DNA from: a bacterium
GTDB taxonomy: Bacteria; Patescibacteriota; Minisyncoccia; Moranbacterales; UBA9337
DNA length: 42,162 nucleotides
Direction of reading: 5' to 3'
NCBI GenBank assembly: GCA_021159185.1
Contig: JAGGSH010000007.1
Location: 1-42,162 of the forward strand
A program made the translations under genes and the position numbers. Under the pieces are notes generated by a model. It ran no database searches. It worked only from the letters and a program-made list of their open reading frames with translations, and was not told the DNA's origin. Numbering within the stretch: position 1 is the first letter of the stretch; every line of letters starts with the position of its first letter. Positions 4,779 to 40,757 of the stretch are shown piece after piece.

Positions 4779-5257
4779 CCTCCCCTCTTTGAGGGGAGGT
4801 GTCCCGCTTGGCGGGACGGAGGGGTGTATGAGGCAGTGACTATGAGAAAATTCTCAAACTTAAAAAGAGAAAAACCTTTAAGAAAAAAACTAAGAAATTC
4901 AGCCACGCCCCAAGAAATAATCCTTTGGTCAAGACTAAGAAGAAACCAATTAGAATACAAATTCAGAAGACAACATTCCATAGGGAAATATATTGTAGAT
5001 TTCTATTGCCCGGAAAAGAATCTGATTATAGAACTGGACGGTTGGCAGCATAGAGAAGAAAAACAAGAAAGATACGATAAAGAAAGAACTAAATTTATGG
5101 AAAGCTTAGGTTTTAAAATACTAAGATTCTGGAATAATGATATTAATAATAATCTAGAGGGAGTTATTCTTAAGATTGAAGAATATTTGTGAAGTTGGCG
5201 ATATTACGCACCCCCTCTCCGCCAAAGGCGGATCTCCCCCTCAAAGAGGGGGAGAGG
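4779..5257. mobile_element. Repeat-bounded unit carrying a DUF559 endonuclease gene
   Basis: The left end (4779-4826) is a 48-base block: an inner palindrome CCTCCCCTCTTTGAGGGGAGG-type, a small GTCCCGC/GCGGGAC hairpin, then GGAGGGGTG. The right end (5209-5257) is the rough reverse complement: CACCCCCTCT, a small CCGCC/GGCGG hairpin, then CTCCCCCTCAAAGAGG-type palindrome and GGGAGAGG. The left block recurs base-for-base at 5876-5923. The only gene between the ends is the DUF559 CDS. The organisation is that of a small transposon-like unit with terminal inverted repeats; mobility is inferred, not shown. Confidence 0.6.
4842..5192 (+). CDS. DUF559 / Vsr-like PD-(D/E)XK endonuclease domain protein
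   Basis: A 116-residue protein with the DUF559 pattern: basic N-terminus, ATPQE-I-I-L-W-x-x-L-R, then Y-K-F-R-R-Q-H-S-I-G-x-Y-I-V-D-F-Y-C, the catalytic-type strand L-I-I-E-L-D-G-W-Q-H, and G-F-x-I-L-R-F-W-N-N-D-I. The D of VDF and the E-x-D of ELDG fit a PD-(D/E)XK/Vsr-like nuclease core. The GTG at 4824 lies inside the left terminal repeat, so the ATG at 4842 (MRKFSN) is preferred. The family is annotated as an endonuclease of unknown biological role. Here it is enclosed by terminal repeats that also occur without the gene, so it may be what moves or maintains those repeats (inference). Confidence 0.85.
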   Translation: MRKFSNLKREKPLRKKLRNSATPQEIILWSRLRRNQLEYKFRRQHSIGKYIVDFYCPEKNLIIELDGWQHREEKQERYDKERTKFMESLGFKILRFWNNDINNNLEGVILKIEEYL

Positions 5258-5290
5258 ATTGAGAAATAAATATTTTATTCAAGTAAATTT

Positions 5291-5875: not shown

Positions 5876-6017
5876 CCTCCCCTCTTTGAGGGGAGGTGTC
5901 CCGCTTGGCGGGACGGAGGGGTGCGCATAAAGCAGTGGCAAGAAAGACAAGGAAAATAATTGTAAGGTCGGAAGCGTTTTACACCCCCTCTCAATCTCCC
6001 CCTCAAAGAGGGGGAGA
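5876..6017. repeat. Gene-less copy of the DUF559-type terminal repeats (MITE-like)
   Basis: The left block 5876-5923 is identical over 48 bases to 4779-4826. The right block 5982-6017 matches the right end of the DUF559 unit (CACCCCCTCT ... CTCCCCCTCAAAGAGG-type palindrome) but lacks its small inner hairpin. Only about 58 bases lie between the ends. It fits a non-autonomous derivative of the 4779-5257 unit and fills the frr-rseP gap. Confidence 0.75.
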
Positions 6018-6032
6018 AGAAAAGGAAATTTT

Positions 6033-8572: not shown

Positions 8573-8618
8573 GTTAAAAGTTTATTTAATCTTGAATTAA
8601 AGCGAGAAAACAAGAAAG

Positions 8619-8721
8619 GCACTTCTTCTCACGATTGCATGAAGATGTTCCGCTTGTTTTTTAAAAAAGCAAAGAAATGAAAAAGCACTTCTTCTCACGG
8701 TCGTATGAAGATGTTCCACTT
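8619..8721. repeat. Tandem pair of imperfect hairpins upstream of murA
   Basis: Two 37-base copies (8619-8655 and 8685-8721, 66 bases apart) share GCACTTCTTCTCACG ... ATGAAGATGTTCC. Each can fold: ACTTCTTC pairs with GAAGATGT apart from one mismatch, around a CACGRTYG core. T-rich tracts follow both, so they could act as weak terminators or as leader structure of murA. The core resembles hairpins at 34860 and 40561. Confidence 0.6.
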
Positions 8722-10017: not shown

Positions 10018-10061
10018 TTAAAAAATTATAAGAGCCGCGCGTTTAATCCGATTAAAAATTA

Positions 10062-10097
10062 TATACCACTAGGTTGCGACCGCGCCGTAATGGTATA
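10062..10097 (+). repeat. 36-nt palindromic repeat R1 (TATACC...GGTATA family)
   Basis: 36 bases with arms TATACC and GGTATA and core TTGCGACCGC. It belongs with R4 and R5 in a subfamily sharing ACC-R-CTA and CGTAAYGG. It lies 44 bases before R2 in the murA to PaaX-like gap. Confidence 0.85.
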
Positions 10098-10141
10098 TAG
10101 ATTTAAGAAGATAGAACAAGACCAAAAACAAATTAAAAAAA

Positions 10142-10177
10142 TATACCATTATTTTGCGGTCGCAACAAAATGGTATA
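10142..10177 (-). repeat. 36-nt palindromic repeat R2, overlapping the promoter of the PaaX/Cas2-like gene
   Basis: Same length and arms as R1, but the core reads GCGGTCGC on this strand, so it is in the opposite orientation to R3. It matches the reverse complement of R3 (10765-10800) at about 33 of 36 positions. Its right end supplies the first bases of the TATAAT box (10176-10181) of the following gene, so a protein bound here would block that promoter. Confidence 0.85.
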
Positions 10178-10181
10178 TAAT
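10176..10181 (+). promoter_or_regulatory. -10 box of the PaaX/Cas2-like gene, partly inside R2
   Basis: TATAAT at 10176-10181 ends 6 bases before the ATG at 10188. This predicts a leaderless or near-leaderless transcript. The first two bases of the box are the last two of palindrome R2. Confidence 0.55.
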
Positions 10182-10187
10182 CTGAGT

Positions 10188-10742
10188 ATGGCTATAAGCA
10201 GCAACACAAAAAAGAAAATAATTTTATTATTAATGGCTGGTGTGGCTTTAGGATTGTCTACTTCTCCGCGGGCGCAGAAGAGGGTTTTTCGCGCGCTTAA
10301 GAGAGAATGGAAATTTGTTGATAAACAAAAACTTTACAGGAATGTTAAAAAGCTAGAGGAGCAAAAAATGATTTATTATAGAAATAAAGGAGAGTGGTGG
10401 AATATTGAGCTTACCAAAAAAGGAAAGAAGCAGGCTCAAAAAATTGGTTTTAATAAGCTGGAAATATCTAAGCCCAAAAAATGGGATAAAAAATGGAGAG
10501 TAGTTATTTTTGATATCCCAGAAAATAAAAAAATAGTTCGCGAAGCACTAAGAAAAAAGATACAAAAATTAGGTTTTCAAGAACTTCAAAAGTCAGTTTT
10601 TATTTATCCTTATCCTTGCAATAAAGAGATTGAGATGGTAATAAACTTTTTCAAAGCAGAAAAATTTGCCAAACAATTCATCGCAACCGATTTTAACAAA
10701 AGCACTGAAAAGAAATTAAGAAAAAAGTTCAAATTATCCTAA
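10188..10742 (+). CDS. PaaX-like winged-helix protein with Cas2-like ferredoxin domain
   Basis: 184 residues from the ATG at 10188; an earlier ATG at 10170 lies inside palindrome R2 and upstream of the predicted transcription start. Residues ~1-85 form a basic winged-helix region (KLYRNVKKLEEQKMI ... WWNIELTKKGKK). Residues ~100-184 match the Cas2-like domain of the PaaX family: W-R-V-V-I-F-D-I-P-E, then L-R-K-K-I-Q-K-L-G-F and S-V-F-I-Y-P-Y-P. D109, at the end of the first strand, corresponds to the Cas2 active-site Asp. Such stand-alone proteins in CPR are often annotated as Cas2, but there is no cas1 or CRISPR array here. It could be an autoregulator acting on R2, or a nuclease handling these palindromes (both inferences). 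Confidence 0.85.
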   Translation: MAISSNTKKKIILLLMAGVALGLSTSPRAQKRVFRALKREWKFVDKQKLYRNVKKLEEQKMIYYRNKGEWWNIELTKKGKKQAQKIGFNKLEISKPKKWDKKWRVVIFDIPENKKIVREALRKKIQKLGFQELQKSVFIYPYPCNKEIEMVINFFKAEKFAKQFIATDFNKSTEKKLRKKFKLS

Positions 10743-10764
10743 TAGAGAAAATGAAAAAATTGAT

Positions 10765-10800
10765 TATACCATTTTATTGCGACCGCAACAAAATGGTATA
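10765..10800 (+). repeat. 36-nt palindromic repeat R3, downstream of the PaaX/Cas2-like gene
   Basis: Near-perfect palindrome with arms TATACCATTTT and AAAATGGTATA around TTGCGACCGCAA. It begins 22 bases after the stop codon and forms an inverted pair with R2. Confidence 0.85.
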
Positions 10801-10853
10801 TAAGTGAAGTTTTAAATTGTAAATAAAAACGGGAAATAATTTGATTATCTAAT

Positions 10854-23802: not shown

Positions 23803-23888
23803 TCTGTCGTTCCCGCGTAGGCGGGAATCTAGGATGCAATCACTAATCTTGCAAAATTCTTTGGATTCCCGTTTTCACGGGAATGATA
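23803..23888. repeat. TCGTTCCCGC...GGGAATGA repeat
   Basis: TCGTTCCCGCG-TAG-GCGGGAATCTAGGAT, then ATTCTTTGGATTCCCGT-TTTC-ACGGGAATGAT. It lies in the hinT-rpsU gap and belongs to the dispersed TCATTCC family. Confidence 0.7.
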
Positions 23889-24286: not shown

Positions 24287-24400
24287 CCTCCTTCCCTCTT
24301 TGAAGGGAGGATTGAGGAGGGGTGCGTAAATTAGAAAAGCTAGCGGTATTACACACCCCCTCTGTCCTACGGACATCTCCCCCTCAAAAAGGGGGAGAGG
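24287..24400. repeat. Gene-less copy of the DUF559-type terminal repeats
   Basis: The left block (24287-24324) is CCTCCTTCCCTCTTTGAAGG-like and ends GGAGGGGTG. The right block (24354-24400) is CACCCCCTCT, a GTCC-TAC-GGAC hairpin, CTCCCCCTCAAAAAGG-like and GGGAGAGG. About 29 bases separate them. The right block matches the segment inside comEC (37970-38016) at about 45 of 47 bases. Confidence 0.75.
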
Positions 24401-24438
24401 AAAAAAGAACAACATTCTAAAATTTAGCATTTAAAATT

Positions 24439-28457: not shown

Positions 28458-28749
28458 GTGATTGTCTGACTACTTTAAATTGTAAAAATCCAGAGTAAAA
28501 TTGCTAGCTTAAAAGAATACTCTGGATTTCAAACCTAGATTCCCAACCGAGTTGGGAATGACATAGAGAAATTTGGGAATAACATAAAAAATAGATACCA
28601 CTAGATTGCGACCGCACCGTAACGGTATATAAATTTTTTTGTTAAATTTTATAAAATTATTTTCATTTATCATTTCAGAGTTTTTTTGGAGCGCTCGCCT
28701 TTGGCAGGCCTGTCTGCCTTTGGCAGGAAGTTGAGAATGGCACATTAAA
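28458..28749. repeat. Repeat-filled gap between convergent ftsZ and kinase-like genes
   Basis: No gene is seen. It contains ACTCTGGATTTC ... GATTCCCAACC-GAG-TTGGGAATGACA (28525-28565), the 36-nt repeat R4, and a TTTGGCAGGCCTGTCTGCC-type palindrome near 28700-28728. All belong to families seen elsewhere in the window. Confidence 0.7.
28594..28629 (+). repeat. 36-nt palindromic repeat R4 (solo)
   Basis: GATACCACTAG ... TTGCGACCGCA ... CGGTATA. It differs from R1 mainly in the first base and the right arm. It lies between the 3' ends of two convergent genes, so it cannot be an operator of either start. Confidence 0.82.
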
Positions 28750-29751: not shown

Positions 29752-29967
29752 GATCTCCTTTTGGAAATTATTGCCGTATAATTTTCTTTGCGGCTTCAGA
29801 AAAAATACCCCACTTATTTTTCAAGTTTCTTATCTGCCACTATTACACGATCGTAAATTAGCGGCATCTTCTTTTTTGATTAAAATTTTTTCAAAAAGAT
29901 TTAATGAACAGATTTATTAAACAGAGAAATGAATGTAAGTATGAAGCGGTAAAGATTAAATCCGTCC

Positions 29968-30570: not shown

Positions 30571-30701
30571 CTCCCCCTTTAGAAAAGGGGGGTTAGGGGG
30601 GGGATTTGAAAGTTATCATTATTTTGAATGCTTTCTTTTTTCTCACGCTTTTCAAATCCCCCTACTCGCTACGCTTACTTCCCCCTTTTCCAAAGGGGGA
30701 G
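30571..30701. repeat. CTCCCCCTTT/AAAGGGGGAG inverted repeat unit between nrdR and nrdD
   Basis: Left: CTCCCCCTTT-AG-AAAAGGGGGG then TTAGGGGG and GGGATTTGAAA. Right: TTTCAAATCCCCCT, a TCGCTACGC stretch, then TTCCCCCTTTTCCAAAGGGGGA-like palindrome. The architecture is the same as the DUF559-type units but the sequence differs, so it is a sister family. No gene is inside. Confidence 0.7.
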
Positions 30702-30774
30702 AAGAGAATATGAGTCTTCCCGGCGTTAATTAATTCCAATATTCAAAAATAATTAATAAATAAAAAACAAAACA

Positions 30775-33865: not shown

Positions 33866-33993
33866 TGTCATCCCCGACTTCCTGTCTGCCGCCAGGCAGG
33901 GATCGGGAATCTAGGATGAAATTGCTAGTGTTATAAATTACTCTGGATTCCCGTTCCCCAATCAGGTTGAGGACAAGTTTCACGGGAATGACA
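33866..33993. repeat. TCATCCCCG...GGGAATGA composite repeat
   Basis: It starts TGTCATCCCCGACTTCC, carries a CCTGTCTGCC-GCC-like GGCAGG palindrome, continues GGGAATCTAGGAT ... TTACTCTGGATTCCCGT, and ends ACGGGAATGACA. It fills part of the nrdG to 34127 gap. Confidence 0.75.
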
Positions 33994-34808: not shown

Positions 34809-34859
34809 CTATTTCCAAATTTTCCATCAAACTGCGCTAAACTATATTTTAATTATGCC

Positions 34860-34883
34860 ATTCCGTCACGATCGTGAGCGAAT
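34860..34883. repeat. Hairpin with TCACGATCGTGA core (arms ATTC/GAAT)
   Basis: The perfect 12-base palindrome TCACGATCGTGA is flanked by ATTC and GAAT. The same core with different matching arms occurs at 40561-40598, and a degenerate version twice at 8619-8721. Confidence 0.65.
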
Positions 34884-34920
34884 GATATATAATTGTATAT
34901 AATTATAAGATAACGCCATA

Positions 34921-37540: not shown

Positions 37541-37631
37541 AAACTTTATTAAAAACTTCACCAAATTTAGCACTTATAAGCGATAGCATATAAGTGCTAA
37601 AAAGGAGAAAGAGGCGCAGATTTAATTGAAT

Positions 37632-37640
37632 TGCTATAAT
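37632..37640 (+). promoter_or_regulatory. Extended -10 (TGCTATAAT) of comEC, probable leaderless promoter
   Basis: TGC then TATAAT (37635-37640), followed by 6 bases and the ATG at 37647. The layout is identical to the rnhB promoter. Confidence 0.65.
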
Positions 37641-37646
37641 CAACTT

Positions 37647-39227
37647 ATGACCAAATCCAAAATTTTTTTAATTTTATCATTAAGTTTTACGGCGGGAGTT
37701 TTCGCGAGATCGTTTTTTGATATTGGTTTAACTCTGATTTATTTTTCACTGGTCCTAATAATAATATTTTTTGTTCTGGGATATAAAAACAAAATCGCTT
37801 GGGTTGCTATCTTGGCGGTTTTATTTTTTATCGTGGGAATTTGGCGGACCGAGATTGATTTAAAAAAGCTGGAAGATTTAAATCTTGGCGAAAAAAATAT
37901 TTCCGCGGAAGTGGCGGTGATCAAAGAGCCGGAGCAGAAAGAAAAATATCAGAAGCTGATTGTAGAATTCACCCCCTCTGTCCTCCGGACATCTCCCCCT
38001 CAAAGAGGGGGAGAGGAAAAAGTAGAGATTTCCTCTCCGCCCGAGGCGGATTCTCCTCTTTTAACAAAGGGAGAGGACTTAAGATTATTAATTAACGCTG
38101 ATCCTTATTTGGAAATAAATTATGGTGATAAATTAAAAATAGACTGTTCTTTGGAAATTCCGGAAAACTTTTCCGATGATTTTGATTACAGAATGTATTT
38201 AGCCAAGGACAAAATTTATTATCTCTGCCGCAATGCTCAAATTGAAAAAATGGAAAGCGGTGAGGCCGGCAAGCCCGGCACTTTTTTATCTAAAAAAGTG
38301 CCGGGTAAACTCTATGGCGCTATTTTGAAAACAAAAAATAAAATGGAGGAAAAAATAAACCAGGTTATTCCCCAGCCTCAGGCGGCGCTGGCTGATGGAT
38401 TATTATTCGGAGGAAGCAGCCGGCTTTCTAAAGAGGTGAACGATAATTTTTCCAAAACCGGAATGACCCATATTGTGGCGGTTTCCGGATATAATGTTTC
38501 CATTATAGCGGAATACTTGATTTTGGCGGGAATATTTTTAGGGTTTTGGCGGAAGCAGGCTTTTTGGTTCGCGTTGGCGGGAATAATTATTTTTGTGGTT
38601 ATGATCGGGCTTCCCGCTTCAGCGGCGCGGGCGGGAGTAATGGGGACGCTTCTTATCTGGGCGATGAAAAACGGACGATTGGCTAATTCTCAAAACGCCA
38701 TTATTTTTGCCGGAGCGGTAATGCTAATAATAAATCCTTTGATTTTGCGCTGGGATATTGGATTTCAATTATCCTTTATGGCGACATTGGGAATTATAAT
38801 GTTGGCTCCTTTTTGGGAAAAATATTTTATTAAAAAACACAAAGTGTTGGGACTGGCGGAGATATTATTTTTAACGGTCAGCGCGCAAATATTCGTCTTG
38901 CCGATTATTTTGCATAATTTTCATAATTTGTCATTTGTTTCCATTCCGGCTAATCTTTTAATTTTAACCATTGTTCCCATAACTATGCTGTTGGTTTTTC
39001 TAACGGCAGTCAGCGGATTTATTTTTTATCCCTTGTCGCTGGCATTTGCCTGGCTGGCCTATCTTCCGCTAAAATATGAAATAGAAATCGTGAACGCGCT
39101 GGCAAATCTAAGTTGGGCGAATAAAGAAGTAGAAAATTTCGGGTGGCGGCAGGCGGTGGTTTGGTATTTGGTTTTGTTTCTAATAATTTTTTTCTTAAAA
39201 GAAAAACGGAGATTGAAAGAGAAATAA
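37647..39227 (+). CDS. comEC: ComEC/Rec2 competence channel protein (membrane part only), with repeat-derived insertion
   Basis: 526 residues from the ATG at 37647; the in-frame TTG at 37626 lies upstream of the predicted transcription start. N-terminal hydrophobic segments and an OB-like DUF4131 region are followed by the competence domain: G-L-L-F-G-G-S-S, M-T-H-I-V-A-V-S-G-Y-N-V-S-I-I, and A-S-A-A-R-A-G-V-M. About ten membrane helices. The C-terminal metallo-beta-lactamase domain of full-length ComEC is missing here and is encoded by the gene at 39671. Residues ~108-144 (TPSVLRTSPPQRGGEE ... SPPEADSPLLTKGED) are encoded by two palindromic repeats of the DUF559-associated family. It conducts single-stranded DNA across the membrane during uptake. 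Confidence 0.92.
   Translation: MTKSKIFLILSLSFTAGVFARSFFDIGLTLIYFSLVLIIIFFVLGYKNKIAWVAILAVLFFIVGIWRTEIDLKKLEDLNLGEKNISAEVAVIKEPEQKEKYQKLIVEFTPSVLRTSPPQRGGEEKVEISSPPEADSPLLTKGEDLRLLINADPYLEINYGDKLKIDCSLEIPENFSDDFDYRMYLAKDKIYYLCRNAQIEKMESGEAGKPGTFLSKKVPGKLYGAILKTKNKMEEKINQVIPQPQAALADGLLFGGSSRLSKEVNDNFSKTGMTHIVAVSGYNVSIIAEYLILAGIFLGFWRKQAFWFALAGIIIFVVMIGLPASAARAGVMGTLLIWAMKNGRLANSQNAIIFAGAVMLIINPLILRWDIGFQLSFMATLGIIMLAPFWEKYFIKKHKVLGLAEILFLTVSAQIFVLPIILHNFHNLSFVSIPANLLILTIVPITMLLVFLTAVSGFIFYPLSLAFAWLAYLPLKYEIEIVNALANLSWANKEVENFGWRQAVVWYLVLFLIIFFLKEKRRLKEK
37970..38076 (+). repeat. Two DUF559-type terminal repeats inserted in frame in comEC
   Basis: The first (37970-38016) matches the right end of the intergenic unit at 24354-24400 at about 45 of 47 bases. 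The second (38030-38076) is CCTCTCCGCC-CGA-GGCGGATTCTCC... GGGAGAGG, closest in layout to 5209-5257. Both are read through without stops and add about 36 residues. Confidence 0.85.
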
Positions 39228-39299: not shown

Positions 39300-39592
39300 T
39301 GTAAGAAACCCTGGCGTTGTTTGCATTTTCTCTTTTATGCCATTCCGTCCCGCTTAGCGGGAGGAGAGAAACGGAAAAATTTATCCGGAATCTACGCATA
39401 TAAAATGAGGAAGAGATTCCCGATCCCTGCCTGGCGGCAGACAGGGATAAAATCGCTGGCTTAAAAAATTACTCTGGATTCCCGCTTTCGCGGGAATGAC
39501 ACTTCGACGGTTTCGTTCTGGATTCCAGGCATTTTTTCTTCCACTCTCCGCCAAAGGCGGACAAGCGTTACAGAAAAAATTCTGGAATGACA
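39300..39592. repeat. Composite repeat, copy 1 (TGTAAGAA...GGAATGACA)
   Basis: It begins TGTAAGAAACCCTGGCGTTG and ends AAAAATTCTGGAATGACA. It contains a CCCGC-TTA-GCGGG hairpin, a CCTGCC-TGGC-GGCAG palindrome, CCCGC-TTTC-GCGGG, and a CCGCC-AAA-GGCGG hairpin. Copy 2 (41908-42135) shares both ends and the TTCCAGGCATTTTTTCTTCC segment but carries different inner palindromes. Confidence 0.8.
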
Positions 39593-39604
39593 CAAAAAAA
39601 TTTA

Positions 39605-39640
39605 TATACCGCTATGGTGCGACCGCAACGTAACGGTATA
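39605..39640 (+). repeat. 36-nt palindromic repeat R5 upstream of the MBL gene
   Basis: TATACCGCTATGG ... GCGACCGCAACG ... TAACGGTATA, in the R1/R4 subfamily. It ends 30 bases before the ATG of the metallo-beta-lactamase gene and continues into TATAAA, a possible -10. Confidence 0.82.
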
Positions 39641-39670
39641 TAAATTCAGTGCTTGCTAATTATTATACTT

Positions 39671-40537
39671 ATGCAAAATAGAAAATTAATCTACGGAATT
39701 TTACTTTCGCTTTTTATCCTCTGCTTAATTTTGGGAGGCGTTATTTTTTATTCCAGAAATTCCCAAGAACTCAAAGTCGTTTTTCTTAACATCGGGCAAG
39801 GCGACGCGATTTTAATTATTCAGGGAAAAAATCAAGTTTTAGTTGACGGCGGAAAAAGCGGAAAATTATTATTGGAAAGACTGGGAAAATTTATTCCTTT
39901 TTGGGATAGGCAGATTGAGGCGGTAGTAGCCACTCATCCCGACCAAGATCATATCGGAGGGCTGGCAAGCGTGTTGCGGAATTATAAAGTGGAAACGGTT
40001 ATGGAAACCAAGGCCAAAAGCAAAACGCAAGTTTATAAAAGGTGGGAGGACGAAATAGAGAAAGAGCAGGCGCAACGCGCGGAAGCGGTTAGGGGCGCGC
40101 GGATTAAATTTCCCAACGGCGCGCTGGCTGAAATTATTTATCCTTTTTGTTCGCTGGCCGATTCCCAATCAAAAGATAATAACGCGAACAGTATTGTGAT
40201 AAAACTTACTTTCGGGGAAGAGAGTTTTTTATTAACGGGAGACTTGCCGAGCAAGCAAGAGAAAATATTAATTGACAGCGGGCTGGATTTGCAATCGCGT
40301 ATTTTAAAAGCCGGGCATCACGGATCCAAACATTCCACCAGCGCGGAATTTCTGAAATCCGTTAAATCGGAAGAAGCCATTATTTCCGTGGGCAAAAACA
40401 GTTACGGACATCCCCATTCGGCCGTTTTGGGAAGATTGCGGGAACAGGGAATTAAATTTTGGCGCACCGATGAAAAGGGGAATATAGTTTATAAATGTAA
40501 AAGCCAAAATGAAAAATGCGAAAGATATTTTGACTGA
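39671..40537 (+). CDS. Metallo-beta-lactamase-fold protein, separate C-terminal domain of ComEC
   Basis: 288 residues from the ATG at 39671. One N-terminal membrane helix (~5-25) is followed by an extracytoplasmic MBL domain: V-F-L-N-I-G-Q-G-D-A-I-L, V-D-G-G, and T-H-P-D-Q-D-H-I-G-G (the H-x-D-x-D-H zinc and catalytic motif). L-L-T-G-D-L and G-H-H-G-S-K-H-S-T follow. This is the standard ComEC C-terminal domain signature, here as its own gene 443 bases after comEC. In the family it is thought to degrade the non-transported strand. The membrane anchor would place it beside the channel. TTG at 39653 is a less likely start. Confidence 0.92.
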   Translation: MQNRKLIYGILLSLFILCLILGGVIFYSRNSQELKVVFLNIGQGDAILIIQGKNQVLVDGGKSGKLLLERLGKFIPFWDRQIEAVVATHPDQDHIGGLASVLRNYKVETVMETKAKSKTQVYKRWEDEIEKEQAQRAEAVRGARIKFPNGALAEIIYPFCSLADSQSKDNNANSIVIKLTFGEESFLLTGDLPSKQEKILIDSGLDLQSRILKAGHHGSKHSTSAEFLKSVKSEEAIISVGKNSYGHPHSAVLGRLREQGIKFWRTDEKGNIVYKCKSQNEKCERYFD

Positions 40538-40560
40538 CGCAGATACAGGAGAATTTTTAA

Positions 40561-40598
40561 AAGTCACATCTATTCACGATCGTGAGCAGATGTAACTT
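40561..40598. repeat. Long hairpin with CACGATCGTG core (arms AAGTCACATCT/AGATGTAACTT)
   Basis: Arms of 11 bases pair with one mismatch around ATT-CACGATCGTG-AGC. It has no T-run, so it is probably not a terminator. It shares its core with 34860-34883. Confidence 0.65.
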
Positions 40599-40757
40599 AA
40601 TGAATTAGCGCAATAATGTTTTTGTCTGCCGCTAACGCGCGATTACGCGTTCGCAGCAACTGTTTAAAATTTTAAGTTAGCCGGTCGGTTTGCCAAAGGC
40701 GGAAGGTTGTGGTAAATTTAATCTCAGATTATTTAATTGTTAGCGTTATAAAAAACT

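Follow-up and report, generated by a model that had tools for sequence, protein, structure and literature searches.

A family of PaaX/Cas2-like genes bracketed by their own dispersed palindromes in very small Parcubacteria-type genomes

Results

A PaaX/Cas2-like gene lies between paired palindromes

The window analyzed here is a stretch of 42,162 nucleotides from a genome (G000) of 936,727 bases in 42 contigs, whose nearest named relatives are Moranbacteria; gene calls throughout are simple ORF calls. At 10188..10742 on the plus strand it carries a gene for a PaaX/Cas2-like protein, P1, flanked by murA on the upstream side and by a convergent thrS downstream. The ORF opens at 10170, giving a product of 190 residues, but the real start is likely the ATG at 10188, from which 184 residues are counted. 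Orthologs of P1 adjoin thrS in G001, the one congener, and in G002, and the thrS neighborhood of P1 is kept across three genera.

The first-pass annotation of the window had read the product as a winged helix joined to a Cas2-like domain, and Pfam gives the same domain order, with PaaX_M matched at 2.4e-22 and CRISPR_Cas2, at 6.7e-5, slightly under the Pfam cut-off. There is no Pfam match to PaaX_C, the chain stopping after the Cas2-like domain, and TIGR02277 scores 35.7 bits against a cut-off of 264.6. The AlphaFold model has a pLDDT of about 87-96 in the Cas2-like half and lower values in the winged helix; when compared with the PDB by Foldseek, its top match was E. coli PaaX (8a39; E 2.6e-4, TM 0.40 on query), followed by Cas2 and then VapD. 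P1 is a PaaX minus the C-terminal effector domain, i.e. a winged helix plus a Cas2-like fold. The aspartate singled out as an active-site residue is indeed conserved in the P1 family (D109 counted from the ATG at 10188, D115 from 10170), but it gives no sign of catalysis, since PaaX repressors keep the same residue, and P1 has no catalytic motif apart from it.

Five 36-mers had been reported around this gene and further along the window, at 10062, 10142, 10765, 28594, and 39605, and all five exist; their arms are generally TATACC/GGTATA, although the copy at 28594 starts GATACC and the one at 39605 has GTGCGACCGC. Two of them form an inverted pair around P1, namely R2 upstream (10140..10179; the 36-mer at 10142, with its core on the other strand) and R3 (10763..10802; the 36-mer at 10765) between P1 and thrS, R3 being 92% complementary to R2. 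The copy at 10062 (R1, 10060..10099), between murA and P1, is an extra upstream copy, of P1 type and of the solo subfamily. DNA homology between G001 and the window stops at the outer edge of R3. The right arm of R2 enters a perfect TATAAT at 10176-10181, 6 bp ahead of the ATG at 10188, where the promoter scan made no full sigma-70 call because there is no good -35, and R3 received a terminator score on the minus strand. The repeats in the window are isolated, with no CRISPR array of regular spacing around P1.

Related palindromes in the window and in the genome

A scan of the window for TATACC-N24-GGTATA with up to two mismatches gave 7 matches against 0.75 expected, a count far beyond chance and reached by no shuffle, and the related palindromes in the window number about ten. 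Solo palindromes of P1 type lie at 28592..28631, between convergent genes, and at 39603..39642, between two genes for parts of ComEC and in the same place in G001. The first-pass census was right for its five copies but missed six others. Two are of P2 type, one with a ACGATCGT core at 34852..34891, between convergent genes and shared in position with G001, where the sequence is of P1 type, and one at 29831..29870 in a divergent intergenic region; a further solo palindrome with a ACGATCGT core lies at 40560..40599. Two are of P3 type, at 8615..8654, with a degenerate core and a cognate gene at 23712-24239 of contig C11, and at 8681..8720. The last, at 37564..37603, has a core of another class, GCGATAGC, and was matched by the covariance model of non-CG cores described below (E = 7.3e-6); its arms resemble the family of locus L138, and no cognate gene for this palindrome was seen in G000. 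The proposed division of the P1-type copies into a gene-flanking and a solo subfamily holds, the solos sharing an oriented asymmetric CTAGATTGCGACCGCACCGTA that is absent from R2 and R3, and it is plausible to read the former as autonomous and the latter as derived.

Some other features of the window were recorded. ComEC is apparently divided between two proteins, one with a Competence domain and the other a metallo-beta-lactamase (37626-39227 and 39653-40537), and this layout, including the P1-type palindrome in the middle, is conserved in G001. A second type of dispersed repeat, ATCTCCCCCTCAAAGAGGGGGAGAGG with CACCCCCTCTGTCC on its left, is unrelated to the palindromes (5183-5267, 5994-6029, 24328-24410, 30677-30708, and 37944-38026), and a further one, GGAATCTAGGATG...ACTCTGGATTCCCG...GGGAATGA, is often close to them (23820-23886, 28487-28528, 33902-33968, and 39433-39499).

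The genome as a whole encodes five PaaX/Cas2-like homologs, each adjoined by its own palindrome family: P1, the window gene (TATACCAYTA..GCGACCGC), P2 on contig C21 (TTACCACTA..ACGATCGT), P3 on C11 (AAGGAACATCTT..ACGATCGT), P4 on C9 (CATCATTTAGAAACGATCGTTTCTAAATGATG), and P5 on C2 (AATACATTATCTCGCGATCGC). Exact P1 and P2 arms were found solely in this genome and its congener. Fifty palindromes were counted, 47 of them intergenic by simple ORF calls over the 924 kb read; the other three were scored inside ORFs, at least one of which is probably spurious. Eleven are placed between convergent genes, 6 between divergent, and 26 between tandem ones, and the convergent share (11/50) exceeds the 14% of intergenic DNA that convergent gaps make up. 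The palindromes do not favor promoters, and the solo copies, several of which lie between convergent genes, do not sit at conserved promoter positions, so that the objection to a mobile element foreseen in the first-pass annotation does not arise. Orphan palindromes, with no cognate gene found in the genome, were also seen at C16:22197 and C17:14034.

Bracketing and co-occurrence across the family

Homologs are present in 47 of 96 relatives, with up to 11 in one genome, and on at least hundreds of GTDB contigs among the matches listed, which include Moranbacteria, Giovannonibacteria, Vogelbacteria, Staskawiczbacteria, Sungbacteria, and others. The GTDB and relatives sets overlap, and 138 distinct loci were left after removing duplicates. 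When the 260 bp before each gene were compared with the 300 bp after it, a matching repeat was found on both sides at 125 of these loci (median score 26, nearly all palindromes), as against 5 of 138 mismatched locus pairs and 10 of 160 control ORFs; at GTDB loci outside the set in which the pattern was found, the count was 58 of 65. The pairing of gene and palindrome suggested by the window is therefore real, specific, and family-wide. The palindrome cores are clade-specific, and the arms vary with the protein. For example, a CGNNCG core characterizes the clade of P1 and a distant one to which P5 belongs; palindromes were present in most of the 15 loci checked there and flanked the gene on both sides in nearly every case. 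Other clades have GCTATAGC, GCATATGC, GCTATCGC, GCAATTGC, or CCATATGG. A sister clade considered as palindrome-free turned out to have a different core. Palindrome distance tracks protein distance (Mantel r = 0.28, p = 0.002), a test that is not fully independent, and neither are the sign tests, because the families are related.

The repeats were also expected to co-vary with the gene, and they do. A covariance model of CG-core palindromes, run on the 96 genomes, matched 31 of the 33 relatives with the gene clade and 11 of the 63 without it (p = 1e-13), a co-occurrence that is partly expected because gene-flanking copies are counted; genomes lacking the gene mostly lack the palindromes. A second model, of palindromes with other, non-CG cores, matched 11 of 15 gene-bearing genomes searched and none of 9 without a detected gene. 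Good CG-core palindromes with no detected homolog were seen in G046 (L278, L279), G015 (L280, L281), and G029 (L282), where they are possibly remnants, or the gene is possibly too divergent for detection. Among 2.9 million viral contigs searched there was a single weak homolog, and a phage origin of the family was rejected on this ground. Two contigs of G001, C50 (L059, 2423) and C45 (L252, 12), bear the same P1 palindrome; C45 starts at it and C50 ends just beyond the gene, and the assembly therefore seems broken at the repeat.

Solo palindromes arise by copying and many are kept

The four P4 palindromes are identical over 32 bases, including positions free to vary between families, and their flanks are unrelated. 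When the P1 solos are oriented by the core, their arms have asymmetric bases in common more often than under random flips (p = 0.008), and these solos therefore descend from an oriented parent. Together, these two observations require copying. In G011, homology between the in-genome paralogs L023 and L065 is confined between the outer edges of their palindromes. These comparisons indicate that the palindrome, and at times the entire palindrome-gene-palindrome unit, is copied. An orphan family for which no cognate gene was found in G000 (C4:15963 and C17:11249; L197, L219) shares non-palindromic positions between its two members, which therefore also arose by copying.

Comparison with relatives bore out the expected presence and absence of elements in part. 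At the orthologous locus in G001, and apparently in G004 as well, the P4 gene region of about 1.6 kb is lacking, and both solo P4 sites are absent from their orthologous loci in G001, a pattern that is compatible with loss in G001 rather than gain in G000. Neither a target-site duplication nor a base-exact empty site was seen, because intergenic DNA is saturated between the species compared. An insertion by a palindrome on contig C54 of G001 was rejected as a clean empty site, the insert carrying an unrelated ORF and no family gene.

On the other hand, many solo copies stay where they are. The G001 assembly is 89% complete and the comparison covers parts of it; of its palindromes with alignable flanks, 8 of about 14 match a G000 palindrome at the same intergenic spot, and around the shared positions most intergenic DNA is no longer alignable. 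Across the pairs, 81 base pairs are unchanged, 19 show compensatory changes (both sides changed, still paired), and 35 are paired in one species, and a shared position often carries P1 type in one species and P2 type in the other. Because 8 of about 14 share their position with the congener, these solos are maintained rather than freely hopping. Their neighbors include the ComEC parts, a trehalose-synthase-like glycosyltransferase, phosphoglucomutase, a class I tRNA synthetase, a PP-loop protein, guanylate kinase, RNase P, FeoB, and RecG, housekeeping genes that share no functional theme; a regulon with such a theme was rejected, as these neighbors are unrelated. No Cas1-like match was found among 20 palindrome-neighbor proteins scanned.

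A two-fold symmetric, bipartite site

A profile of 61 non-redundant palindromes, in which the CGNNCG requirement of several scans fixes +-2,3 by construction, has its information peaks at +-1-4 and +-12-14. The core shows a purine/pyrimidine bias at +-1 and +-4, and a second block, (Y)CA at +-12-14, lies one helical turn outward from it; base pairing is 72-93% in the outer block, with a minimum of 52% at +-6,7. The profile contains no GTAG or CGTC tag, and the palindromes have no Rfam match. In this profile, the two-fold symmetric 36-40 bp bipartite site has the form that a dimer with two domains would leave when lying along one face of the B-DNA. The PaaX repressor of E. coli binds TGATTC-N27-GAATCA, 39 bp overall, and represses its own promoter (PMC9493321), and this operator is, like the palindromes described here, large and two-fold.

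Discussion

The reading that we favor, and regard as reasonably probable, is that PaaX-type dimers bind private palindromes and autoregulate, with their sites dispersed in the manner of REPs; binding is predicted here, and any catalysis would be putative. This reading is supported by the bracketing across the family, the co-occurrence of gene and palindrome, the five paralogs with a palindrome family each in one genome, the relation of palindrome distance to protein distance, the bipartite site and its likeness to the E. coli PaaX operator, the fold of the protein, the copying of solos, and the shared positions with compensatory changes. Each protein would act as a PaaX-type dimer devoid of the effector-binding C-terminal domain and would recognize its cognate palindrome of 36-40 bp in double-stranded form, with the pair of winged helices reading the outer arms, about 12-16 bp off center, and the Cas2-like dimer being placed over the conserved core. 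The upstream copy, which overlaps or abuts the promoter, may then mediate autorepression. The palindrome would be copied to other intergenic places, as REPs are, where the cognate protein may bind and many copies would then be kept. Against this reading stand the lack of a catalytic motif beyond the aspartate of PaaX repressors, the lack of a target-site duplication or base-exact empty site, the age and retention of many solo positions, which pure dispersal does not predict, the palindromes in G015, G029, and G046 despite no detected gene, and the solo neighbors that share no functional theme. A stronger proposal, that the Cas2-fold protein itself copies or moves palindromes, each paralog founding and rewriting its own site population, is possible but doubtful.

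Plain regulons, in which ordinary repressors use solo palindromes as operators of target genes and nothing moves, would account for the PaaX architecture and fold, the operator-like site, the upstream copy abutting the promoter, and the position and symmetry of sites kept between species. We nevertheless find them unlikely: the effector domain is missing, the copy downstream of the gene recurs just as regularly as that upstream of it (125/138), sites between convergent genes (11/50) exceed their 14% intergenic share, the neighbors are unrelated housekeeping genes, and the P4 identity in unrelated flanks and the asymmetry of the P1 solos need copying. The first-pass annotation had leaned the other way, toward a REPtron-like system that copies or moves its own palindromes. 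The solos do descend by copying, and orthologous loci may carry the element or lack it, but many solos are maintained. An autonomous mobile element, whose Cas2-like nuclease or recombinase would excise or copy units and solos as RAYT does REPs, is in our judgment improbable. The ends of the unit at the palindromes in the G011 paralogs, the presence or absence of P4 at its locus together with its new solos, and the palindrome families without a resident gene are in its favor, whereas it is opposed by the lack of a catalytic signature past the shared aspartate, the place of P1 beside thrS in three genera, the many old solos, the lack of any target-site duplication seen, and the one weak viral homolog. 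A function at the RNA level, in which the Cas2/VapD-like fold would bind or cut hairpins in the transcript, or the palindromes would act as bidirectional terminators, is most improbable. In its favor are the excess of sense-strand G-T over A-C mismatches in the CG-core set (32 vs 11 arm families, p = 0.002), the T enrichment immediately outside the palindromes, and the minus-strand terminator score of R3. Against it, the mismatch excess was not repeated in the independent non-CG set (44 vs 43), so that an RNA or single-stranded DNA hairpin was rejected, the would-be loop is the most conserved part, and Rfam gives no match.

Cas2 folds are known from CRISPR adaptation, VapD toxins, and PaaX repressors. 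PaaX repressors (8a39, PaaX_M) likewise combine a winged helix with a Cas2-like dimerization domain, but they have a C-terminal effector domain that is missing here (190 residues vs 305 in the 8a39 chain), and the genes described here lie outside a phenylacetate operon, are bracketed on both sides, and occur in several paralogous copies per genome, with private sites for each that are dispersed as repeats. Cas2 and VapD share with P1 the ferredoxin-like fold and the strand-1 aspartate, whereas P1 is fused to a winged helix, its match to them spans just about 40-60 residues, no CRISPR array accompanies it, and a nuclease role through the aspartate is putative. REPtrons (REPIN-RAYT, TnpA-REP) have a single gene with flanking palindromes, intergenic solos, and several families per genome, and REP repeats are commoner where the gene is present and lie mostly in unidirectional and convergent gaps (PMC3733652, PMC8049555). 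The system described here is REPtron-like in that the gene is flanked by repeat copies (125/138 loci) and dispersed intergenic copies derive by copying; its palindromes, too, form several families per genome, are commoner with the gene, and lie mostly in tandem and convergent gaps. However, its partner is PaaX_M/Cas2-like and not an HUH tyrosine transposase, its repeats lack a GTAG or CGTC tag and are palindromic through the core, with no loop, and copies number in the tens, not hundreds, at positions kept between species. In open-access full text, no paper was found that joins PaaX with Cas2, PaaX with Patescibacteria, or REP with Parcubacteria.

Together, these data describe a widespread self-bracketed family in very small Parcubacteria-type genomes, which is REP-like but has another kind of partner protein. 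The Paceibacteria contigs listed, at least hundreds, offer a ready set of cognate protein-site pairs, and the family likely explains some solo "Cas2" annotations in CPR genomes. It is relevant to the spread of repeats in very small genomes and to the way in which PaaX/Cas2 dimers read DNA, and may have a bearing on how palindromic repeats became targets of Cas2-type proteins. To our knowledge, the dispersal of palindromes is known mainly with HUH transposases; if it is true that a Cas2-fold protein moves palindromes, this would be a new, non-HUH route of palindromic repeat spread in ultra-small genomes.
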